From Crossaster papposus (Eukaryota; Echinodermata; Asteroidea; Velatida; Solasteridae), in NCBI GenBank assembly GCA_037893245.1, contig JBAIAA010000433.1, positions 1,728,948 through 1,792,947 of the forward strand: DNA of 64,000 bases. The letters run 5' to 3'. Every line of letters starts with the position of its first letter. Within the stretch, counting starts at the first letter, position 1. The position numbers and the translations under genes are program-made. The notes beneath the pieces were generated by a model. That model was not told the origin of the DNA. It saw nothing but the letters and a program-made list of their open reading frames with translations, and made no database searches. Of the stretch, positions 14,733-59,360 are shown piece after piece.

Positions 14733-15416
14733 CCGTTCTAACACAGGGATAAAACAATGAGTCTTTGAGCAATGCTGCAGGCGTATTCGCAAGGATCGAT
14801 GATGCATAGTTTAGAGCGATTCTTGAGGGGCAACTTGAGCCCGTTTACTGCTCAGTATTGAATGTCCGCCTTCATCGAATGATAGCGTTTGCCTATACTT
14901 CAAGTGCGGTCTCCTGTCCGTCTGTCTGTCTGTTATTAGGATATCCATCTGCATCTGCTTGTCTTTAGTGGGCTATTTATTCCATCCACAAGCTGTGCAC
15001 CCTATAATGTTCCTCAGTCTTCAACAATATATCAATTCAATTCAATTCAATTCAATAGAACATTTATTTCCACATTCTTACTCTTAATTACATTGAATAA
15101 TACATGTACATTAAAACAAGTGTGAAGTTGTACTGGCGTATAACTTAGTTGTAGAAGAAGCTTTCTTAATCGCCATGATAAACCCTATCCTCGGCATTCG
15201 TTACACAGTACTACAAAATACTTTTCAATTATCATAGGCCAGTGTGGTGTAAGAGTACTGCATATTGAAGTTTACTTTTTGCATTGGTTGACGTTATAAT
15301 AATAATAATAATATGCAGTTCTTATATAGCGCACGTATTTACCAAGACTGGTAATCAAGGCGTTGTGAGAATTTTCAAAGATAGGTTAATAATGAAGTTT
15401 ATGAAAATATGATACC
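14733..15416. repeat. Simple repeats and a dispersed-repeat fragment
   Basis: (GTCT)n at about 14915-14932, (ATTCA)4 at about 15033-15053, and (AAT)n at about 15298-15313. The last is followed by a piece reading GCAGTTCTTATATAGCGCAC and on to about 15395, a dispersed repeat seen widely in animal genomes. The last part forms the left flank of the transposon that starts at about 15417. Confidence 0.5.
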
Positions 15417-15820
15417 AATTCGTCGCATGTCTGGCGAAGTGACGATTGGTCCAATTTGGTGGTTTTTTTATTAAATGACTATTATGGTTAAAAAACTTCA
15501 CATTTTCAGATTTTTGGGTTTTTAAATCATAAAAACACTTCATTTTTGTAGTTTTGAAACCCACCAAGTGACGAATCGGCGCATCATGATTCGACGTTAT
15601 CTTGCGAAGTGACGAATACATTATTCGACACTTATTCATATCATAACAGCGCCGCCTCATTATCAGACGAAGCGACGAATATCCATGTCTTCGTTGGTTA
15701 CCTACATAATCGTCTTCATAATTAAACGGCCTGTGCGGGAACCAGGAAATTTCTATTTCGCGCGCTATAATTTCTGTAAGCTTTTTTTGTAACTAACAGC
15801 ACTGCAACTTTAAATGAAGT

Positions 15821-15834
15821 ATGACTAAAAAGAG
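15821..15834 (+). CDS. Predicted exon 1 of the transposase-like gene
   Basis: ATGACTAAAAAGAG is followed directly by a strong donor, GTAAGC, at 15835. Joining it to the acceptor after TTTCATTCACAG (ending 16744) keeps the frame and gives MTKKRISYPCKGTDVLVEW, a sensible protein start. The alternative start at 16696 would translate the intron end (MYMYRINVTLFTYF) and is less likely. The intron would be 910 bp. This is inference from splice signals only. Confidence 0.55.
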
Positions 15835-16744
15835 GTAAGCATATCTTTATTAATTGTTTTGTGGGTTTATATATCTTTTAAATGAAGGGAGTACGTACTA
15901 GGCTAGGTACAGCTGCGCCACGATTCGGGCCGCGACGTAGTCGTATACAGATGATTTAGGCCTGTCATTATTACGTGTCATAAGCCTTCAATCTGTGCTT
16001 AACGTTGATAAGAGTTAGGCCTAGCTAGTTGCCTGACGTTATCATAGAAGGCTCCATGTAGGCCTACCACAACCCTATTGTGTAGGTTGCTTCATGTCAA
16101 TGTACTGTTATTTTGCCAAAGTTTGTGAAGACTCTTGAATTTACATTCGATTAATAAAGAGTGGCTTTGAAATCGCAGGCCTCCAGTGCGTAGCCTAACC
16201 TAGCCTATGGCGATTGCGAAATTGTGTCGGTTTAGTTTAATATTATTAGTATGTTAATCCTTAAGATAATAATTTAGATTTGTTTCACTAAATATTTCTG
16301 GGAAATTGAATCAGACTAAGACTTGTTTGGTTAAGATTGTCAATATCTTGTATAAATCATGTCATGTCATAATATATAAATAAAAGAAATTGAAAGTGAC
16401 GTCACTGCAGTGACAGCGTACAGTGTTGTGACACTGCATTTTTAAAGTATCATGAGCCGGGGGCAGAGGTTCGAACCGTCAACTGTATACTATTTTTTTG
16501 CTCCATGTAAGGAGAAGAATTCCAGTAAAAGAAGCATTTGATCACAATGCCAAGTTGAAACCTTTCGTCTAAAATATTATCTTTCTTGTTTAAATCGTGT
16601 ACATGCACACAGTCAACAGTTCAAAAGTATACTCTTCAGTATATTGAGCCTGCACTCGGTGGTTATATTTCTGAAGAGTATTTATTTAAATTATTGTGTA
16701 CATGTATAGGATCAATGTTACTTTGTTTACATATTTCATTCACA

Positions 16745-19154
16745 GAATCAGCTATCCTTGCAAAGGAACCGATGTGTTGGTAGAGTGGGACGATGGTTCA
16801 CAAAATGTCGTTGCTGTTGACGAACTGCGGAGTGAACACGACGGCCCCACATCTCTGAGTGCCGGATCTGAAGTTTATATGTGGTGGCAGCCACAAATGA
16901 AGTGGTGGCATGGAAGGGTCGTCACTTTTGATGGTATCCGGGAGGACATCAGTAGTGAAGATGATGATGAAGACAACATTCCATTGACAACATTGATGAC
17001 TAAACGATCAGCTGATGCGGTAGAGATCAATGATGTATTAATGACTAATGAAGACCAACACCTGTCTCAAAGGTGCGAGACATTTGACTGTGAGCAAGAA
17101 GTATGGGCAGCATGCATCTCATGTATGTGCCTACTGTGTTTTGATCATTTTGAGTCAAGCTCCCCCTGCCATCTTCACAATAAAATGGTTCTTTCTCCCA
17201 ACAATGACATTAGCCATTCAAGACTTACACAAAATGGTCAAATTACTCAAGAAAATATCATTAACATTGATGATATCCCAATCATTGATCTTTTTAGTAC
17301 CGATGAGGCAAATCTTGGCGGATTTTTTCCTCTTTTTAACTCAAGCACTGTGACAGAACAATCTTCGTCATCAGAGAATAAATCGGATTTGATGCCTGAA
17401 AGTTTCACTGTAGAAGGAGAGCGCCGGCAGGAATTGAGCGAAAGTCTTGATAATCCAGTTCTGAAACCTCAAAGTTCAAAGGAACTAAGGAATCATGGAC
17501 TGCCATATACATCTTCCAAGTCCCACAGTAAAATGCCAGGGCGAAGGGGTCTTAAACCTGCCTGTAGTGGATCCTGCTCAAAAACAATGAAGTGTGGTTC
17601 AATATCATCCTCTCACCGTCATGCGTTGCAAGAAGCATACTTTGACACAGGGAACTTACATGAACAACGGACATGGCTTTCCAATCACGTCACTGTTCTC
17701 TCACCGAAAAAAACAAATGGAGAAAGAAAGAAAAGAACATTGAAATACTGTCTTCCGGATGAAAACGGTGACTTAGTGCCCGTGTGCCGTACAATGTTTC
17801 TCAGTACACTAGGCATAAGTGAAAGACAGGTGCGAACTGCTCTCGCAAAAACGAATTCCTTTGGTATTGTGGAAGGAGAAAATAGGGGAGGAGTTCAACA
17901 GGAGCGCCGGAAGAGTACAGAGGACATTGTCAGTTCAATGAAGGCACACATTAACCGATTCCCACGTACTGAAGCCCATTACTGCAGGAAGAACAACAAC
18001 CGGCAATATTTAGCTTCAGACCTGACAGTAAGCAAGATGTATCAGATGTACACATCTGAAAACACCAGCCATAAAGGCTCATATATCACTTATAGTAGGG
18101 TGTTTAGAAAAATGAATCTTAGTTTTCATAGGCCGAAGAAAGATCTGTGTGGTCTTTGCGATTCATATAACAAAGGCGATGAGATTCAAAAGGAAAAGCT
18201 AAAAGAAAAATATGATAACCACACCCAACAGAAAAACAAAGCAAGGGAGATAAAAGAACAACTGAAAAATAAGTCTTTCAATAGCACAAGCAAGCTCAGA
18301 GTCGCCACCTTTGACCTCCAAAAGGTAATTTACCTCCCCCAAAGTAACAGGTGCGAGATATTTTACAGACGTAGGTTGTCGTGTTACAACTTCACTATTT
18401 TTGATCTATGCACCAGGGAATGTAGATGTTACTTATGGCATGAAGGTATAGCTGGACGAGGCTCTAACGAAATTGCGTAAACGATTTTCTCTTAGATTCA
18501 GACAAACGTGGCTTTGAAGAGGTTGCTCTTTTCGTGGATGGTTGCGCAGGGCAAAACAAGAATTCTATTGTCGCATCAATGCTTCTTAGGTCTGTGCAGC
18601 AAGCAAAACATTTAAAAAAGATAACGTTGTACTTTTTTGAAAGTTCACACGGTCAAAACGAGGGTGATTCCGTCCACAGCACTGTAGAGAGAGCCCTTAA
18701 GCGAGGTGGTGACATGTTTGTCCCTTCTCAACTAGTTACTCTCATTTCTCTAGCTAGAAAAATTCCCTATTCAGTTAAACAAGTCCAGAAAGAAGACGTT
18801 GTGGATTTCAAGGAGTATTCCGAACAGATCGGGGTCCTTAGGGTTCGACAAAGTGAAGAAGGGCATGATGTGTGTTGGACAAAATTGAAACAGTTGCAAG
18901 TAAGACAAGATTCCCCAAGAAATTTGTACATCAAACATTCGCACCTGGATCAAGATTTCAATACCATTAAACTTGTACGTCGTCGTTCATCAGACGAGTC
19001 AAGAATGTCAGATTCACTTAGTCCAGCTTATTCAGATGATGCCCCAAAACTTTCTCGGTCAAAATACACTGATCTGATGTATCTTTGCGAGGGGCTAACT
19101 CCTGTGGTTAACCATCCTGAGCATCAGAAGTTTTATAAAGACCTACCCCACTGA
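16745..19154 (+). pseudogene. Transposase-like protein: Tudor-like, Cys/His finger, RNase H-like core; one frameshift
   Basis: This is the main exon, coding for roughly 800 residues. In order: a Tudor-like module (GTDVLVEWDDGSQ, then VYMWWQPQMKWWHGRVV); an acidic stretch; a B-box-like Cys/His finger at about 17073-17185 (CETFDCEQ, CISCMCLLCFDHF, CHLH); a Ser-rich linker; a conserved block (VCRTMFLSTLGISERQVR, then HINRFPRTEAHYCR, then PKKDLCGLCDSYNKGD); a Lys/Glu coiled stretch; and an RNase H-like core with Asp in FDLQKVIYLPQ (about 18313), Asp in VDGCAGQNKN (about 18537) and HGQNEGDSVH (Glu at about 18660) as likely D/D/E residues. From memory this matches a family of uncharacterised invertebrate proteins (a DUF7869-type domain, name to be verified). 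The frame is lost once: after GSNEIA a TAA appears at 18478-18480, and the continuation (FLLDSDKRGFEEVALF) is in another frame, so one small deletion near 18476 is enough to explain it. The rest is open to TGA-free stop at 19152-19154. The copy is therefore young or the break is an assembly error. Confidence 0.75.
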
Positions 19155-19297
19155 ACCAAACAATCAAATACAATCCTAAACCCACGATTCAAATTTGACT
19201 CTACAAAGCAGTCAAACTTTCACATTGATTCTAGACATGTAGGCCTCTAGTACTCAGGTGGAAGAATTATAACATATTTTTTAGTTTCTAGTTTCTA

Positions 19298-19468
19298 CAC
19301 TCTCAAAACGTAATGGATTATTGATGAGTACATCTACCCAATGTTGGTTAAATTTGGTTAAACATAACCAACATTAGGTAAAATGACAACATCGGTCAAA
19401 TTGGAAACAATTACACATTGTTGGTTATAATTTTAACCAAAATAATTTTAATACATGTTTTGGGAGTG
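19298..19468. mobile_element. CACTCTCAAAAC MITE, copy 1
   Basis: Ends are CACTCTCAAAAC and its near complement GTTTTGGGAGTG. The inside has ACCCAATGTTGGTTAAA-like units in both orientations. It lies in the 3' untranslated part of the transposase-like element, so it inserted later. The same family is at 30426-30739. Confidence 0.6.
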
Positions 19469-20397
19469 AAGTTTCTTTTCCAGACCTCAGTATGATAGTG
19501 TGTTTTAACAAAAAATTGTTTTGAATTTTACTTTTACTTTATCAAACCCTGTAATTTTCATAAGATTAAATGATTGATGTATTACAGATATAAATTTATG
19601 TAGAAAGGCATAATGCAGAAAAAGAACTTACAATGCTGTAGAAATGATTGAAATCAACGCATGCACACAATTTCTGGTTGAACTGCCACATTCAATCAGA
19701 TGCAGTAGAAACCTAAAATTAGTTTGATTTCAATCCCTTAATGAATTATTATTATTTATCGGTACGGTAGTATAATTTTAATTGTCATCATAAAATGTCT
19801 TTAACGATACTCTAATGAACTATAATGAACGAATGAACGAATGAATTTATGAATAAATAAATAAATAAATAGTGTTGTTAGTTCACATCATTCAAATGTT
19901 GTTTTCTTATGGTTGTATTTGAATTGTATTCCATTTACAAAAAATATAATTACCCTGCCGTATTTTAAAGCATATAGCAAGTACTCAGATTTTAACATTG
20001 CGTTCTGAAGCGCGTATTATATTCCCTAAAGAAGTGACGAATATAAGATTTGTGATGCGAAAACCCGCGTACAGTACAAAATGTTATCTTACAAAGTGAC
20101 GAATAAGAAATTTCACATGGCGAATAGGCAAAACGACGTTTATTGCTATCTCGCGAAGTGACGAATAAGTTTTACTGTACAAATTAAACAAACCATTACT
20201 CTTACAAACAAAAAACAAAGTAAAATATATAATTGAACAATCAAATTACCAGTTTGCATAACTTAAGACTGTGAACATGGGAAAGTGGCATCGAAAACGG
20301 GCACGTAAAAAGTGTCCAACTTTAGATGCGTTTTTCTCAGAATGGCGTTTCTGCATATTCGCGCGTATTCGTCGGTTCGTCAGATATGCGACGAATT

Positions 20398-21218
20398 ATG
20401 TAGCACCTTTGTAAGTTTATTTAACAAGGTGTTTAGTGTGTATTTGACACAATTGATTTGCGGTTTTTCGCACCAGGATTATTTGTACATTGTAGGTTCC
20501 AAGAGCAAGACTGTTTTTGCACGAAACTCAATCCAAGATGGGTTCAGGCCGGCGTCTTTGGATAGCACACTTGATATTTCCGGCCTTGCTCGCTGCGAGC
20601 CGGTCGCTGACATATATTGTTTACGTTGCTAGTGAAGTGCTTATTTTTCATCTGTTTTGAATTGCTGACAGAACCTTGCTTGCAAACAAAATGCAAAGTC
20701 ACATCACGCCCTTCACCAGTGCATACGTACACAACCACATTTATATAGAGAAAAACCATTACATCAATTGATTTTCCAACAGCTTTCAAGTTTTTTATAC
20801 TGTTGTTTTAAGCAACTGAGTTCAAACTTTACACTTGGTAACACTAAAATTACTGCAATTGATAACAACAAAATAGCTTCCCCTTTCTCTACTGAGAAGA
20901 AGGTTCAAAACCCTGGGTGTCAGCTCTAAGAAATTTGCGGATACTGTTGCCTGGCTCTAGTTTAATTACAGTTAAGTTTGATTCGATTTTGTGTCCAGCT
21001 AGCCAGCTTGGCGGAACCACTAGTTTCGCTGGAAACAGCTGGCTGTTTTAGCGCGTAACAAATCCGAACGGCTATGAGCTTGCGTTACCATGTCGCCATG
21101 GTTACGGGTGAGCGTCCCTGGATGTTCCTATCGACCTGGGCACTACGTATACTTTTAAGGAATTGCTACAATTGATTGGCCTATTGGCTAACGTGGCGAG
21201 TTGAATGTGTATCACTAT
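20398..21218. other. No gene seen; local inverted repeat at about 20996-21045
   Basis: CCAGCTAGCCAGCTTGG and its partial complement CAGCTGGCTG near 21040 form a weak stem. Open frames at 20312-20632 and on the minus strand lack motifs and partly lie in the transposon end, so they are not supported. Confidence 0.35.
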
Positions 21219-24894: not shown

Positions 24895-25035
24895 AAGAAA
24901 TTAGCAAGGCGGGACTCGATCCTGCGACCTCCGGAATACCGGACCGGCGCTCTACTGACTGAGCTATCTTGCCCTATGTTGGCGGTCTCCTAAATTGTCA
25001 GTATCTTTGTTCGAGGGCGCTAGTCAGGATTGTGT
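24895..25035 (-). repeat. tRNA-like repeat unit, copy 2
   Basis: The minus strand from about 24975 reads GGGCAAGATAGCTCAGTCAG, then GAGGTCGCAGG, ATCGAGTCCCGCC and CTTGC. The anticodon-loop position differs from copy 3, as expected for a SINE or pseudo-tRNA rather than a real gene. It shares both flanks with copy 1: AAAGATACTGACAATTTAGG upstream and AATTTCTTTG downstream. Confidence 0.65.
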
Positions 25036-25689
25036 TTGCTAACGAAGAACCAATGTTAGTGAAGAACATAATTATTAAAAGAGTCGGCGATATATAAGGG
25101 ACTGGTATTAGTGTTTTGTCAATCTGTGAAGTCAGCTGGCAAAGAAGTGTCTTTTTTTATTGTCTAAGGTATTAATAAATACATTAAACCATAAGATGCA
25201 AGAAATGGGACAGAGAAAAAATAACCTCCCTTGAGGTGGTCATTGTGCTTGCGAAATGTTGTGGTTTCTCAATAATTCTTGTTAGGTTTTATGGAACGGG
25301 GGGGGGGGGGGGGGGGGGGGGGGTTGTTAGGTAACAATAGTCTAGAGAGTGTATAGGTATGGAGGACTAAGGGTGGAGTAAGTCGGTCCCATTTCTTGCT
25401 GCGTACACCTTGTACAGTGTATCGTTTCCTATTGGTCGAGAGCCCGTCACGTGGCTGGTTTTAAATGGCTGATAAAACACAAGGGCCAGTTTTAAACATT
25501 TACCCAGTGTCACGTGAAACGTGGACGTTCATGTAATCTGGTCTATTTACCCTTGTATTGGTTGAAACCCCACAAACTGTACCAGCAGCTTGCGTTCTGC
25601 GTAACATCGCCCAGTACATGTACGCTGTGAAAACACCAAATAATTATATCAACTGTAGACAATTAGCTTTATATGATACACCAAAAGAC
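25036..25689. other. No gene seen; G26 run at about 25298-25323
   Basis: A long uninterrupted G tract lies at about 25298-25323. No supported coding frame; the 63-codon frame at 25558-25749 has no motif. Confidence 0.45.
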
Positions 25690-27107
25690 GAATTTGGCCA
25701 AAATCATTATTTTTTTGAAATTCTTTTTTTGGGGGCTGAAATCGATTGAGTGGATAGCAACGAACATTCTGGCGAGGTTAATATTGTCAAAATCAGTTTG
25801 AATCATTAAGATTACAAAAAATCATACAGGGGGAAATTTCACCAAAACAGTATTTTCAGTTTTCACGAAGAGACGAATTATAATTTGTCCCTGCGTAGAT
25901 AGAAATAACGTTGCCTCGAGGGCAAAAACAACGCGTGTACAATGTATAAACATTGTATAGACATTCACGAAGAGACGAATATGGGCAAAACAAGTTTTTA
26001 AGTTTTTACGAAGAGACGACTTCCGTGCGCTATGGGCAAAAAAGCCACCGTCATAGATTTTGAGTTTTTACGAACAGACGAATTATAATTTGTGAATTTT
26101 CACGAACTGACAAATTATAATTTTTCACTGCGTAGACAAAAATAACGTTGCTTCGAGTGCAAAAACAACGCGCGGTACAATTTATACACATTAGGGACTT
26201 TTCGATTTGCACGTTTACTATAGTAGACTGCGACGTATGCGGTCATTTGTGAAGCAGTGCGCATGCGCATCGACGAACTCGTCGTTCGTAGCAGAATTCT
26301 CGAACGCGTTCAACCTTGTTTTGCCGTCGTTGGAAAACTGTGACGACATAGTGTGCATATCACTGGGACTTTTCGATTTGCACGTTTACTAGTAGACTGC
26401 GACGTATGCGGTCATTTGTGAAGCAGTGCGCATGCGCATCGACGAACTCGTCGTTCGTAGCAGAATTCTCGAACGCGTTCAACCTTGTTTTGCCGTCGTT
26501 GGAAAACTGTGACGACATAGTGTGCATATCACTATTTTGTAGAAACGAAACACCACATCAGGAAAGAAACACCACATTTGAAAATGGACCCGATTGACTT
26601 GATTCTTTAAGCAGAGAGTGGTGGAAGCGTAAGTTCGCTAAAATTAACACATTTTCTTGTCTGTAATTTCCCTTAAATACAAATTCTTGTAGAATAATCC
26701 ATTGGGACCGCATACGTCGCAGTCCACGTGTGAACGTGCAAATCGAAAAGTCCCTATTGTACATACATTCACGAAGAGACGAGTATGGGCAAACAAGTTT
26801 TTGAGTTTTCACGAAGAGACGAATTCCGCACGCGATAGGCAAAAAGCCACCCCCGTAGATTTTGAATTTTCACGAACAGACGAATTTATATCTGCATTAA
26901 TTACTCGTCAATTAATTGTTTTAGTGTTCTTTAGTAGGTATACTTTTTTAAGTTTTAAATCTCACCTTTCTGTACGTACCAAATAATAATGTACTTTAAA
27001 AATAGGCGAAATATCGTTTTCAAAAAGTAACCAACTTCAAACCTGATTTTCTTAAAACCAATTTGAAACTCCCCGTGGCCAAATTCGTCTCTTCGTGAAA
27101 ACGCTGA
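25690..27107 (+). mobile_element. CGAAGAGACGAAT-rich non-autonomous element, copy 1
   Basis: Same family as 39184-40659 in opposite orientation: GAAATCGATT-AGTGGATAGCAACG near its left end and GGCCAAATTCGTCTCTTCGTG at its right end match the other copy. A motif close to TTTTCACGAAGAGACGAATT occurs at about 25860, 25964, 25999, 26065, 26098, 26767, 26806 and 26867, and inverted at about 27072. Left boundary is approximate; a target duplication is not clear. A MITE (26194-26754) has inserted inside. No coding frame is supported. Confidence 0.7.
26194..26754. mobile_element. TA-flanked MITE with internally duplicated left arm
   Basis: The ends are GGGACTTTTCGATTTGCACG and its complement, with TA on both sides (26192-26193 and 26755-26756). 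The inverted repeat extends about 50 bp to GACTGCGACGTATGCGGTC. The first 171 bp (26194-26364) are repeated directly as 26365-26533, identical except for one missing TA. The two open frames this creates are products of the duplication, not genes. Confidence 0.8.
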
Positions 27108-27114
27108 CGATTTG

Positions 27115-39183: not shown

Positions 39184-40659
39184 TTTCAGCGTTTTCACGA
39201 AGATACGAATTTGGCCACGGGGAGTTGCACATTGGTTTTAAGAAAATCAGGTTTTAAGTTGGTCACTTTTTGAAAAAGAGATTTCGCCTATTTGTAAAGC
39301 ACATAATTTGGTACGTACAATGTACAGAGAGGTGATATCTAACACTTTAACAATATACCTATGGCGGGGCCGTCCAAAGTTTTCAACATTTTAATGGTCG
39401 TACAAAGCGTACGACAGGGGGGAGGGGGGAGGGGGGTCGGAGGCCGCGTACGACTTTAAATTGTGAATAAAATGTTGATTTTGTACCGTACAATCAGCAA
39501 AAGATAATTATATAATTGGTTTTGTTTCCTTCTTTTTATATCTCGAAAGAATTTTCAACGTTAAAATCATAAGCGATACAAAGTCCGCTGTTCAAAAATG
39601 ATTGCTTCGGCAGGTATGGTTATACCTTGTTAACAGCTATTGTGCAACTCCGAGAAAAAAAAACCGATGCGTCCCTGGCTAGCTATACGTAGCTTGCGAG
39701 GATGAGATACTTTTGACGCCGCCCGCACTACATGCCGCGGAGACCGATTTGTCAATGATTTCGTATAGCGCAACGTTAACCATGCGGTGTACATACACAC
39801 ATTGATGCCCTAGCCCTGAATAAGCGCGCGAATGTGCCAAACGTGAATGAATAACCTTTGACACGACTTTACTGCGACTCGTTCCCACAGCTGTGCATGG
39901 ACATCGTGCACGCAATGCCCCACCGCGCGCTACCGGTGTTTGGACTAAATGTTGAAAAGTACTACTTTGGGGGGAGGGAGGGGGGTCTTGAAAAGTAGTA
40001 CGCTCTGTACGACATTAAAAATGTTGACAACTTTGGACGGCCCCTAAAGAACTCTAACAAATTTAATTTACGAGTAATTAATGTAGATATAAATTCGTCT
40101 GTTCGTGAACATTCCCAATCTACGGTGGTGGCTTTTTTGCACATAGCGCACGAATTTGTCTCTTCGTGAAAACTTAAAAACAAATTTTGCCCTAATTTGT
40201 CCCTTCGTATATACATTGTATATACATTGTACGCGCGTTGTTTTTGCACTCGGAGCAACGTTATTTCTATCTACGCAGGGAAAAAATATAATTCGTCTGT
40301 TCGTGAAAACTTACAAATTAGATTTCGTCTGTTCGTGAAAATTCCAAATCTACGATTGTGGCTTTTTTGCACATAGCGCACGAATTAGTTTCTTCGTGAA
40401 AACTTAAAAACTAGTTTTGCCTTAATTTGTCCCTTCGTGAATGTATATACATTGTATATACATTGTACGCGCGTTGTTTTTGCACTCGGAGCAACGTGAA
40501 AACTGAAAATACGATTTGGGTGAAATTTCCCCTGTATGATTTTTGTAATCCTAATGATTCAGACTGATTTTGACAATACTAACCTCGCCAGAATGTTCGT
40601 TGCTATCCACCTAATCGATTTCGGCAAAAAAACGAATTTCGAAAAAAAAAACGCAGACG
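39184..40659 (-). mobile_element. CGAAGAGACGAAT-rich non-autonomous element, copy 2
   Basis: ATAT at 39180-39183 and 40660-40663 is a 4-bp target duplication, confirmed by comparison with the uninterrupted host MITE. The ends share TC(A/T)GCGTTTT, with CACGAAGATACGAATTTGGCC next to the left end. Many TTCGTCTGTTCGTGAAAA-type motifs lie inside. It is a reverse-complement relative of 25690-27107. It carries a further insertion at 39362-40044. No coding frame. Confidence 0.8.
39362..40044. mobile_element. GGGGCCGTCCAAAG element nested in copy 2
   Basis: GGGGCCGTCCAAAGTT and CAACATTTT-AATG-GTCGTACA-AGCGTAC near the left end face the complement at the right end, about 50 bp of inverted repeat. TA flanks both sides (39360-39361 and 40045-40046), and the host sequence known from 25690-27107 is continuous without it. 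G-rich tracts (GGGGGGAGGGGGGAGG and GGGGGGAGGGAGGG) lie just inside both ends. Non-coding. Confidence 0.75.
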
Positions 40660-49399: not shown

Positions 49400-49640
49400 A
49401 TTAAATCTCATTGAGTGATGCCTACCATGTCGTTTCCCAGGTTGTATCGTAAAATCGGGCGTGATCGCTGGCCACACGGCATTCTGGTGTTTAAGACTGC
49501 TGATTAGCGCTCTTGGTAAAGATACTGACAATTTAGGAGACCGCCAGCTAGCATAGTGTAAGATAGCTCAGTTGGTAGAGCGCCGGTCCAGCATTCCGGA
49601 GGTCACAGGTTCAAGTCCCGTCCTGCCGATTTTTTGTTCA
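49400..49640 (+). repeat. tRNA-like repeat unit, copy 3
   Basis: 49554-49628 carries a good A box (TAGCTCAGTTGG) and B box (GGTTCAAGTCC), a D stem GCTC/GAGC, a T stem with four of five pairs, and a T6 run at about 49631 that could stop RNA polymerase III. The acceptor stem is poor and position 33 of the anticodon loop is not T, so it is more likely a tRNA-derived SINE than a tRNA gene. The 150 bp upstream match the flanks of copies 1 and 2. Confidence 0.65.
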
Positions 49641-53901: not shown

Positions 53902-55682
53902 TCACCACCATAGACCTGCGTGCAACTTGAAGCCGCAGCCAAACAGTTCGGACACGGCCCAGCATAACACTTTGGGCGTGGTTTTGGCGTGCTTTACTAG
54001 TTTGAATTTAGCCGCGTGCCGGCATGCGCTAGTTAGCTCAGATCTTTGGTTTAGATTAGCCATTTCTGGGTGGCAGATAATATAGAATTTCTCCATAGTG
54101 CATAAGTTGCATCGTTTACTGATGTTAGAGTACGGTTGAGCATTGCTCAAGATTTTCTTAATTGTGTATTCAGTGTTTTTGTCTTTTAGCGTCCATACAT
54201 GTTTGGATAGTTCTGTCTGGTTCCTGTGCGCTTTTTTCTTGAATGATTGTCGGTGGTTTCCGAATATTTGTTTAAACTCGGTGCTTGTTAGGCCTACAAA
54301 CGTCTCTTCACTCGTGTTGGTTTTCACAGTGGCTTGGTAGGCGATGTTCGGTGTTCTGCATTTTCCATCCGGGGGCATTCCTTCTTTACCCTGCAGTTGC
54401 AAGGTTTGGTTTCTGGTTCTGGTGCCTGCTTCTTTATTATATTTTTGTTGTGAGCGTTCAAAGTTGACTTCATGTTTGGCATACAACTGTATGACAGCTT
54501 CAGTGTGTTCTTGTTGAAGATTTGTTGCAGTGCGTGTGCTTTGGGGAAACTCTCGTTAACAATCTTTAAGAATTGGCGTCCAACGTTGGTTTTTACTCTT
54601 AAGTCAAACGGCGGGTTGTACCATGTGACGTTTCTTTTTCTGGATCACTTCTTGTACTTTGCTCATTTGTTACGTTTGTTTTGAATTCAAGCTTGTGGTC
54701 GTAGCCGCTTTCCTTCAATGCCTTTTGGTATACGCTGGTTGACTTCTTGAATTCGTCTTCGTTTGATGAAATGTCAGAGAGTCTGCGATTGATGCCTTGT
54801 GGAATTGCACGAATGACGTTCTGCGGGTGGTTGCTCTTTGCGTTTACGTATATTGGGGCGTTTCCTGGTTTTAGGTATGGCCTATGTACTCCGCGATTGA
54901 GCTCGAGCGTGACATCAAGATAGTTGACAGTTTGTTTTTTTGCTTCAATATTTATGCGAAGTCCGTTTATTTTGAATATTTCGCATATCCTCTTCTTGAT
55001 GCGCTCTACTACGTTTGGTGGCTCGTGGAAGACGGCCAACCCGTCGTCCCTGTAGAGGCCAATTACATTGCCGTAGTGGGGTTTAAGTTGGGACAGCAGG
55101 TAGACGACGACCAGTTCACAGCATTCTGCGCTGTCATATGATCCCATGGTGACGTCAAATAGACTACTGCTTTTCTTTACCCATGGTTCGTTACGTCTGA
55201 AGAGCAAAGTTTGCTTGGCATGAAGAATAGTTTTACTGTCCAATTGGGCGATCTCTACGTATTGTGATGCGTATAGTCTACTGCGTCATTTAAGAGTTTA
55301 TCGGTGATTGACGGGTATAATTAAACAATGTCAAAGCATATAAACGCACCTTCGTTGGTAAAAATTGGCTTGAATGTGGTCCTTTAGCGTGGTAAATGGT
55401 TCGCGCTGGGCAATCACGTCCATTCGGTCATCCAGTTGGAGCTCCCCGGTGATCTTTTTCGCTTCGTCGTTGATTTTGTTAACTTGTCTGTTAGTGCCTT
55501 TTTTGCACGTTTTGCAGATGTTTTTATCAACCAGTTCATCGTAGTCGTTCGGTGTCATTTTGTAAAAGTTAGTGGTTTTATCCGCTTTTACTATCAGCTT
55601 TGGCTCTTCATTGATCTGTTCGATGTCATTCTTTAATTGGCATTGGAAGTCGTTGGTGTTCTTGTCAAACTCAATGTTTTGT
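53902..55682 (-). pseudogene. Penelope-like element, RT plus GIY-YIG, decayed
   Basis: On the minus strand the first part (DLIQNIEFDKNTNDF, then IVKADKTTNFYKM and FTTLKDHIQANF) is the N-terminal RT region. A deletion of about 165 bp near 55345 removes the next 50 residues. The RT core follows: FDIV, a stop, YPSIT, a one-base insertion near 55262, then TLLFRRNEPWVKKSS and the catalytic YRDDG at about 55043-55057. After a frameshift near 54650 comes KRNVTWYNPPFDLRVKTNVG, then a Cys motif (PCNCRVKKECP), another shift near 54380, DGKCRTPNIAYQATV and a GIY-YIG-type endonuclease (FVGLTSTEFKQ, then NHRQSF). RT plus C-terminal GIY-YIG defines Penelope-like elements. At least five lesions make it dead. 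Confidence 0.85.
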
Positions 55683-56386
55683 ATTAAGTCCCAACGTTCC
55701 TACTTGCCGCCTCATCAATCCCTGCAAGTCGGAATTGGGCAGAGCTAGCAAACATATCACAGAAAAGATCGTTAAAGAAGAAGCGGAAGCAAGTAAAGTA
55801 AACTTGTGGCGAAACACTAATGCCGTACTTGAATGGTTCAACGACATCCCGAACAAGACTGAAGGTGCGTTTATATGCTTTGACATTGTTGAATTCTACC
55901 CGTCAATCACCGAGAAACTCTTAAATGGCGCACTAGACTACGCATCACAATACGCAGAGATCGCCCCATTGGACAGAAAAACTATCCTTCATGACAAGCA
56001 AACATTGCTCTTCAGATGTAACGAACCATGGGTAAAGAAAAGCAGTAGTCTATTTGACGTCACCGTGGGATCATATGACGGCGCAGAATGCTATGAACTG
56101 ATCGTCGTCTACCTGCTGTCCCAACTTAAACCCCACAACGGCAATGCAATTGGCCTCTACAGGGACGATGGATTGGCCGTCTTCCATGAGCCACCAAACG
56201 TGGTAGAGCGCATCAAATATTCAAAAGAAACGGACTTCGCATAACCATTAAAGCAAACAAAAAAACTGTAAACTATCTTGATGTCACGCTCGACCTCAAT
56301 CGCGATACCTAAAACCAGGAAACACCCCAATATACGTAAACGCCAAGAGCAACTACCCGCAGAACGCCAGACAGGAAGGAACCCAT
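55683..56386 (+). pseudogene. Penelope-like element, RT fragment, second copy
   Basis: Starts inside the RT domain with NVPTCRLINPCKSELGRASK and reads through FDIVEFYPSITEKLL, DVTVGSYDGAECYELIVVYL and YRDDGLAVF. A short deletion and frame change near 56215 follow, then NGLRITIKANKKTVNYLDV and, after a stop, NTPIYVNAKSNYP. Truncated on both sides. It differs from the minus-strand copy at several percent of residues (for example GSYDGAECYEL against GSYDSAECCEL), so the two are separate insertions, joined head to head at about 55682. Confidence 0.85.
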
Positions 56387-57060: not shown

Positions 57061-57584
57061 GAGTCAATAATTTTTGAAAGTCAATGATTTTTGTGACTCA
57101 AGTCGAGTCGAGTCATTTTAACAAGTGATCCTCCAATCGCGAGTTTTCTTGCGGTCGATTCATGTATTTTTTTTTTTTATTTTTTTTTTAAGTCAAATTG
57201 TGTGCTTCTGTAAACGTCATCAAAGGACCCCATACTTGACCTTTGCCCTCAATAATCCGATGAATAATAGTTTTTTTCACCATAAGGTCACTACATCCAA
57301 GTTTAATCAGGTTACATGAAAACATACGTATACGTTTTTGTTTTACAAAAACTGAAGCTGAAACTTTAACAAACATGTACATACGGATAATTTAGGACTG
57401 GCTTTAGTGCCATAAAGAATGTGTTCAGGCGACACAAAAAATGACTTAAGTCGAGTCATTAGTTAGGAAGTCAGGTCTAGTCGTGCAAAGTATTGCTTTT
57501 TTTCTGGGAGTCGAGTCTTTTGATGAGGGACTCGAATCTAGTTGAGTTGAGTCATTTATCTGTCGGGACTCAAGTCGATTTGAA
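57061..57584. repeat. Degenerate GAGTC-rich repeat and dispersed repeat relative
   Basis: Irregular AAGTCGAGTCGAGTCATT units at 57095-57120 and 57440-57580 look like the ancestor of the adjoining minisatellite. Between them, 57235-57440 is a relative of the 6003-6260 dispersed repeat. Confidence 0.6.
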
Positions 57585-59185
57585 TCGAGTCGAATTGAAT
57601 CGAGTCGAGTTGAATCGAGTCGAGTTGAATCGAGTCGAGTTGAATCGAGTCGAGTTGAATCGAGTCGAGTTGAATCGAGTCGAGTTGAATCGAGTCGAGT
57701 TGAATCGAGTCGAGTTGAATCGAGTCGAGTTGAATCGAGTCGAGTTGAATCGAGTCGAGTTGAATCGAGTCGAGTTGAATCGAGTCGAGTTGAATCGAGT
57801 CGAGTTGAATCGAGTCGAGTTGAATCGAGTCGAGTTGAATCGAGTCGAGTTGAATCGAGTCGAGTTGAATCGAGTCGAGTTGAATCGAGTCGAGTTGAAT
57901 CGAGTATAGTTGAATCGAGTATAGTTGAATCGAGTATAGTTGAATCGAGTATAGTTGAATCGAGTATAGTTGAATCGAGTATAGTTGAATCGAGTATAGT
58001 TGAATCGAGTATAGTTGAATCGAGTATAGTTGAATCGAGTCGAGTTGAATCGAGTCGAGTTGAATCGAGTCGAGTTGAATCGAGTCGAGTTGAATCGAGT
58101 CGAGTTGAATCGAGTCGAGTTGAATCGAGTCGAGTTGAATCGAGTCGAGTTGAATCGAGTCGAGTTGAATCGAGTCGAGTTGAATCGAGTCGAGTTGAAT
58201 CGAGTCGAGTTGAATCGAGTCGAGTTGAATCGAGTCGAGTTGAATCGAGTCGAGTTGAATCGAGTCGAGTTGAATCGAGTCGAGTTGAATCGAGTCGAGT
58301 TGAATCCAGGCGAGTTGAATCCAGGCGAGTTGAATCCAGGCGAGTTGAATCCAGGCGAGTTGAATCCAGGCGAGTTGAATCCAGGCGAGTTGAATCCAGG
58401 CGAGTTGAATCCAGGCGAGTTGAATCCAGGCGAGTTGAATCCAGGCGAGTTGAATCCAGGCGAGTTGAATCCAGGCGAGTTGAATCCAGGCGAGTTGAAT
58501 CCAGGCGAGTTGAATCCAGGCGAGTTGAATCCAGGCGAGTTGAATCCAGGCGAGTTGAATCCAGGCGAGTTGAATCCAGGCGAGTTGAATCCAGGCGAGT
58601 TGAATCCAGGCGAGTTGAATCCAGGCGAGTTGAATCCAGGCGAGTTGAATCCAGGCGAGTTGAATCCAGGCGAGTTGAATCCAGGCGAGTTGAATCCAGG
58701 CGAGTTGAATCCAGGCGAGTTGAATCCAGGCGAGTTGAATCCAGGCGAGTTGAATCCAGGCGAGTTGAATCCAGGCGAGTTGAATCCAGGCGAGTTGAAT
58801 CCAGGCGAGTTGAATCCAGGCGAGTTGAATCCAGGCGAGTTGAATCCAGGCGAGTTGAATCCAGGCGAGTTGAATCCAGGCGAGTTGAATCCAGGCGAGT
58901 TGAATCCAGGCGAGTTGAATCCAGGCGAGTTGAATCCAGGCGAGTTGAATCCAGGCGAGTTGAATCCAGGCGAGTTGAATCCAGGCGAGTTGAATCCAGG
59001 CGAGTTGAATCCAGGCGAGTTGAATCCAGGCGAGTTGAATCCAGGCGAGTTGAATCCAGGCGAGTTGAATCCAGGCGAGTTGAATCCAGGCGAGTTGAAT
59101 CCAGGCGAGTTGAATCCAGGCGAGTTGAATCCAGGCGAGTTGAATCCAGGCGAGTTGAATCCAGGCGAGTTGAATCCAGGCGAGT
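57585..59185. repeat. 15-bp minisatellite in three variant types
   Basis: Base unit CGAGTCGAGTTGAAT. Blocks in order: about 21 units of the base form (to 57900); 9 units with TATAG in place of TCGAG (57901-58035); about 18 base units (to 58305); about 59 units of CCAGGCGAGTTGAAT (to 59185). Block borders are sharp and units within a block are identical, which points to recent expansion of founder variants. Because 15 is a multiple of 3 and the unit lacks stops, very long frames open on both strands; they are not genes. Confidence 0.95.
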
Positions 59186-59360
59186 TACCACAAATTGTGA
59201 CTCCAGTCGAGTTATTAACTCGAGTCATAACAACTTGCAACCCTTGACTTTGGTCAGCAACATGTAACTAGCTACATAGGAAGTGTTGCAATCCCCCCCC
59301 CCCAAAAAAAAAAAAAAAAAAAAAAAAAAAAGATGGCAGCATCTTTGTTAACCCAGCTGC

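Follow-up and report, generated by a model that had tools for sequence, protein, structure and literature searches.

The DNA transposons that most resemble the element described here belong to the Sola superfamily, which the cited passages describe as having 4-bp target-site duplications, lengths of mostly 2-9 kb, ends of 11-1124 bp and a DDD transposase (PMC10741241). For Sola2, the portion of the account cited here gives AT-rich 4-bp duplications of the form AWWT (ATAT, AAAT, ATTT) and short imperfect inverted repeats (PMC3627910). Among retrotransposons, chromatin targeting is reported in the section cited for chromodomain- and Tudor-carrying Gypsy elements; Gypsy-10_Ec32, a long terminal repeat retrotransposon of Ectocarpus, has a Tudor domain and is, to its authors' knowledge, the first mobile element so reported (PMC12477816). 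Here we analyzed a 64,000-nucleotide stretch of Crossaster papposus contig JBAIAA010000433.1 (C433:1728948-1792947; the window) together with the 1.02-Gb assembly of 1841 contigs to which it belongs. Positions 15421-20393 of the window are very probably a broken copy of a cut-and-paste DNA transposon encoding its own DUF7869-type transposase. An initial annotation of the sequence had proposed a coherent transposon at this locus, and we adopt that reading because there are independent copies, exact ends, 4-bp duplications and several families.

The near-matching inverted ends of that annotation are present, with 18 of the outermost 20 positions identical, and when extended they match at 25 of 29 positions (15417-15445 against 20369-20397 inverted); in 20 dinucleotide shuffles of 15001-20900, the highest score for inverted 29-mers separated by 3 kb or more was 22. 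Similarity ends at the proposed limits of 15417 and 20397, but the outermost AATT on each side (15417-15420 and 20394-20397) is the target-site duplication, leaving 15421-20393 as the element proper. Since AAAT and ACTT, found at other insertions, are not palindromic, the four flanking bases are a duplication outside the inverted repeat, and 5'-CGTCGC is where the element begins. The left terminal inverted repeat spans 15421-15447 on the plus strand, ending in a terminal motif at 15435-15447, and the right repeat spans 20367-20393 on the minus strand, with the motif inverted at 20367-20379. This 13-mer, CGAAGTGACGAAT, recurs inside both ends in the same direction: on the plus strand it lies at 15435, at 15564, 15605 and 15668 (left subterminal sites, 15564-15680) and at 20030, 20092 and 20154 (right subterminal sites, 20030-20166, spaced 62 bp apart), and on the minus strand at 20367; a weak opposite-strand partner occupies 15623-15635. 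Allowing at most one mismatch, the element holds seven sites against a shuffle mean of 0.015, and allowing two it holds eight against 0.09 (200 shuffles). Each of the seven lies no more than about 365 bases from one element end, as expected from the clustering at both ends that had been claimed. A short AACCAA-rich repeat in the 3' part of the element (19324-19468) matches many places in the genome and the window and is probably a nested small element.

A comparison of the element with its own genome, in which 40 out of 288 candidates were scored, gave at least 72 rows of matches, and among the matches listed three copies are full length: the window copy, C381 (99%) and C693 (98%). The left flank of C381 is 99% like that of the window and the right flank is common for its first 86 bases, so these two represent one locus, duplicated or allelic. 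C693 has the same ends within unrelated flanks and is an independent insertion. Across the element's own family and two divergent families (L042 and L052), matching 4-bp flanks were found in eight of nine independent insertions with both ends legible. In the own family these are AATT/AATT at the window, C693 and C510 and AAAT/AAAT at C604; the L042-family insertion C251 has AATT/AATT, and the L052-family insertions have ACTT/ACTT (C45) and AAAT/AAAT (C28 and C17). The tally is AATT four times, AAAT three times and ACTT once, which is A-N-W-T in the cases seen. This count leaves out C381, which has the window's flanks, C53 and a non-autonomous relative in the window, A, each with one end degraded, C283, with one end only, and a second such relative, B, with a mutated terminus (ATAT/ATAT). 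Single ends were also found beside AATT (C260) and beside AAAT (C500 and C630, which have their flank in common). A pattern for the terminus matched 51 rows in the genome as compared to 9 for its backward control, with at most one mismatch in 23 rows. Rows with two mismatches were inspected at C175, C789, C8, C53 and C798; those at C175, C789 and C8, as well as C605 with one mismatch, were set aside as chance, with the 13-mer missing after the terminus. The C510 insertion (L061:41-116) is a 76-bp element consisting of right and left ends only, with AATT on both sides. Aligning copies with their flanks, as the initial annotation had suggested, therefore recovered exact ends and a 4-bp target duplication, and for the window family we saw neither homologous genes at single-copy conserved loci without inverted ends nor genomic similarity running past the ends.

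The most likely home for this transposon appears to be the Sola superfamily, in a Sola2-like position, with transposases compared by their described features only. As in the passages cited above for Sola2 and Sola (PMC3627910, PMC10741241), the duplications are A/T-rich and 4 bp long, the inverted ends are short, imperfect and at least 11 bp, and an element within 2-9 kb encodes one large transposase. AATT (four cases), AAAT (three) and the ATAT of relative B fit AWWT. Unlike our element, the Sola2 described in those passages comes with no mention of a Tudor-like front or of recurring subterminal sites, and the single ACTT lies outside AWWT. This could be a Sola2 element and nothing more, its Tudor-like part and site arrays being ordinary Sola2 features that have gone undescribed, a reading to which we give somewhat better than even chances and which is compatible with the mechanism proposed below. 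The A/T-rich duplications, the size and the short imperfect ends all favor it, as does a bivalve survey that, in the part cited, counts Sola2 among ordinary elements (PMC10294476); ACTT does not. Assignment to piggyBac or Kolobok was rejected, as these call for a TTAA duplication and AATT, AAAT and ACTT were found.

The subterminal sites were then compared across families, counting positions from the CGTC end and designating sites with three mismatches as weak (about 16 chance matches per 64 kb). The left array reads +15, +144, +185, weak -203 and +248 in the window element, weak +15, +184, -202 and +247 in L052, and weak +185, -202 and weak +248 in L042. Thus the window sites at 15605, 15623-15635 and 15668 have counterparts in two other families, where they lie almost equally far from the end. 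In the C604 derivative the array reads +15, +133, +174 and +236, where the inner sites are 11-12 bases nearer the end and the 41- and 62-bp steps are preserved. At the right end, distances to the terminus are 364, 302 and 240 for both the window element and C604, each of which also carries an inverted terminal site at 27; the corresponding values are 338, 298, 237 and 27 for relative A and 294, 231 and 27 for L052, and L042 shows a single site, at 200. Aligned without gaps, the families are 35-38% identical to one another in the left 300 bp and 28-34% in the right 400 bp. On the basis of site positions and a gapped alignment, the left positions recur while the intervening DNA has diverged, with less regularity on the right. 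The sites point mostly the same way at both ends, which are not mirror images; this shared direction and the unequal spacing suggest that the enzyme could tell the two ends apart.

The gene between the ends has two exons, as first annotated. Exon 1 (15821-15834, plus strand) is 14 nt long and encodes MTKK plus 2 nt, with a donor, AG/GTAAGC, that is the same in the three full copies; the intron (15835-16745, plus strand) retains its GT and AG borders in all three, and exon 2 runs from 16746 to a stop codon at 19152-19154. L052 has a short M-S-R-K exon candidate at comparable distance, and no short first exon of the MTKK or M-S-R-K kind was recognised in L042. The gene had been called one frameshift from intact, which is true of the window copy, whose frame breaks near 18.47 kb at the site of a short deletion relative to C381 and C693, but those two copies are also broken, each at another place. 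An unbroken frame of 884 residues exists in L042 (C251), with 44% and 52% identity to two pieces of the window protein and with inverted ends that agree at 23 out of 24 positions, and L052 (C45) has an 806-residue frame with a core identity of 57%. The elements are 4973 (window), 5209 and 5770 bp long. Searching the genome with the L042 protein, with 52 out of 382 candidates scored, gave at least 60 match rows whose identities range over 40-100%; in some cases two rows are pieces of one locus. In a comparison of four lineages, the proportion of synonymous differences (pS) was 0.84-0.90, near saturation, and that of nonsynonymous differences (pN) was 0.27-0.36, indicating that selection preserved the protein between families. 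In further relatives of the transposase the open frame extends over 1100-2000 residues, and one element end was seen at each of L043 and L044. In another relative, L053:942-7262, the linker has grown into a coding minisatellite within a 2107-residue open frame; this minisatellite led us to reject an extra domain there, and convincing inverted ends were not found in the surrounding 9.5 kb.

At the N-terminus of the protein is a predicted Tudor-like domain followed by an acidic tail (16746-16989, plus strand). An AlphaFold2 model has four strands in a block with predicted local distance difference test (pLDDT) scores of 62-88 (residues 11-60). Against PDB profiles, 14 of 23 rows were chains of BAHCC1, PHF1 or KDM4A (E 0.011-0.55), and in a fold search the first 12 of 50 rows were Tudor regions of KDM4A/B/C or ARID4B. 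No transposase or chromodomain appeared in the 50 fold rows shown, by which nothing is excluded. Together these results give moderate support to a Tudor-like module, although it would correspond to about one lobe of the hybrid or double Tudor of KDM4A/B/C and ARID4B, at 16-21% identity. In a competing reading, which we rate somewhat below even, the barrel has an SH3-like fold that binds DNA or protein and does not read histone marks. Weak matches to SH3 domains (E 0.039 and 0.07) and TOBE_2 (0.035) point that way, and GreA/Gfh1 and EF-Tu barrels come next in the fold list; the Tudor regions leading that list and the share of BAHCC1, PHF1 and KDM4A among the profile rows argue against it. If the module is Tudor-like, the element and Gypsy-10_Ec32 would both be mobile elements equipped with a chromatin reader of the Tudor type, and ours differs in being a DNA transposon with the module N-terminal, where the cited description has a retrotransposon with a C-terminal Tudor (PMC12477816). 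Among the titles listed in the literature searches none concerned a DNA transposon with a Tudor domain; we do not claim that none is in print.

Next in the protein is a Cys/His finger (17074-17148, plus strand; C-x4-C-x7-C-x2-C-x-C-x2-C-x2-H) that is invariant in the window, L013, L042 and L052. It had been called B-box-like, and while the pattern is conserved, filtered Pfam scans returned no B-box model, with Transp_Tc5_C as a weak lead below cut-off. The central region (17569-18290, plus strand) is partly conserved, with HYCR and FHRPKKDxC..C motifs, has a below-cut-off match to PF07848 PaaX and is possibly DNA-binding. The candidate catalytic core (18298-19151, plus strand), which includes the frame break, contains the motifs FDLQ (D1), DGCAGQNKN (D2) and HGQNEGD (E/D3) given in the initial annotation, which had named an RNase H-like transposase candidate. 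In an alignment of four sequences (A2), D154, D231, E272 and D274 are invariant and stand in a fitting order, any of which may be catalytic; the RNase H-like D-D-D/E core is a candidate judged from sequence. Comparison of the core with PDB by sequence gave nothing useful, and a profile search gave one row and no transposase. No relatives were found in viral contigs searched by protein, pattern and profile, and NCBIfam and PHROGs searches returned nothing credible. A degenerate DNA pattern for HxQNEGD hit 11 stretches in prokaryote genomes, where by our own estimate about eight are expected by chance.

Pfam family DUF7869 (PF25273, cut-off 26) matches the window core piece at 26.7 bits and L014 at 28.3 bits. 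Three of the four A2 members match over about 100 core residues; a Pfam scan of the whole L042 protein did not list the family. The name agrees with the earlier remark that relatives are known as proteins of unknown function: core pieces score above cut-off, but the family has no assigned function and covers only that part of the core. This lack of a Pfam function, and the absence of the word DUF7869 from the literature searched, would suit a separate superfamily outside Sola defined by the DUF7869 transposase. We consider this unlikely, as duplication length, A/T preference and size match the Sola2 descriptions in the passages cited (PMC3627910, PMC10741241). A host gene or domesticated transposase with coincidental inverted ends would fit the low number of full-length copies listed, of which two represent a single locus in duplicated or allelic form, but the independent C693 insertion with its unrelated flanks and same ends, and duplications in three families, make this highly improbable and we reject it for the window family, while some other relatives could be domesticated.

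For the cut-and-paste transposon that we favor, we propose that the transposase would bind the terminal site and subterminal array via its central region and Cys/His finger. The putative RNase H-like D-D-D/E core would then cut at 5'-CGTC and join the ends to A/T-rich targets (A-N-W-T, as above) with a stagger of 4 bp. The hybrid-Tudor-like N-terminus may anchor the complex on histones that carry modifications, biasing target choice. In its fullest form, we speculate that this is a transposase lineage whose N-terminal hybrid-Tudor-type histone reader chooses the chromatin for insertion and whose left-end site positions are held across families that can no longer be aligned, a proposal we offer tentatively. 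Some results do not fit the overall reading. Among the nine insertions, C798 of the own family is the sole exception, with flanks CATT/GTTT. Without gaps, agreement in motif columns was 8/44 between the window element and L052 and 20/44 between it and L042, as compared to 71/216 and 68/216 elsewhere; the test is spoiled for L052 because its sites sit one base nearer the end. Finally, the initially annotated Tudor-like module agrees with the profile and fold matches but not with the Pfam Tudor models, which stayed below cut-off at E 0.03 or worse (Tudor_3 0.031, BAHCC1-like_Tudor 0.039, PcrA_UvrD_tudor 0.16).

The two non-autonomous relatives in the window carry a sister motif, CGAAGAGACGAAT, and in neither does any stop-free frame exceed 111 residues. 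Relative A (about 25680 to 27109, plus strand) has the same strand layout and a right end of GACG followed by ATTT. Relative B (39184-40659, minus strand), in a similar layout, lies between two copies of ATAT and has TTTCAGC at one terminus instead of CGTCAGC. Nested in relative A is an insert (26190-26756) with inverted ends GGGACTTTTCGATTTGCACG... and a 171-bp tandem repeat (26194-26364 and 26365-26533, 98.8%). Elsewhere in the window, 57529-59213 is a long minisatellite whose self-matches are shifted by 60 bp and which can be read without stops in several frames of either strand. Two opposed pieces that are 88% alike lie within 53905-56241 and resemble a Penelope-type retroelement. Matches to tRNA within window-repeated stretches (24902-24973 and 49557-49629) are probably tRNA-derived short interspersed elements. 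Together with introns and retroelement pieces, such tRNA matches are in keeping with animal DNA.

This is an ordinary kind of cut-and-paste transposon with two uncommon features, the Tudor-like front and the recurring left-end site positions. It connects DUF7869, which has no assigned function in Pfam, with complete transposons whose ends are exactly placed. This link would aid in labelling animal genes that otherwise go by the name uncharacterized, of which there are many. If the N-terminal module does read histone marks, the element would be an example of a DNA transposon that has its own chromatin targeting, and the main interest of the finding is that relatives with naturally open frames make the idea of a chromatin reader testable.

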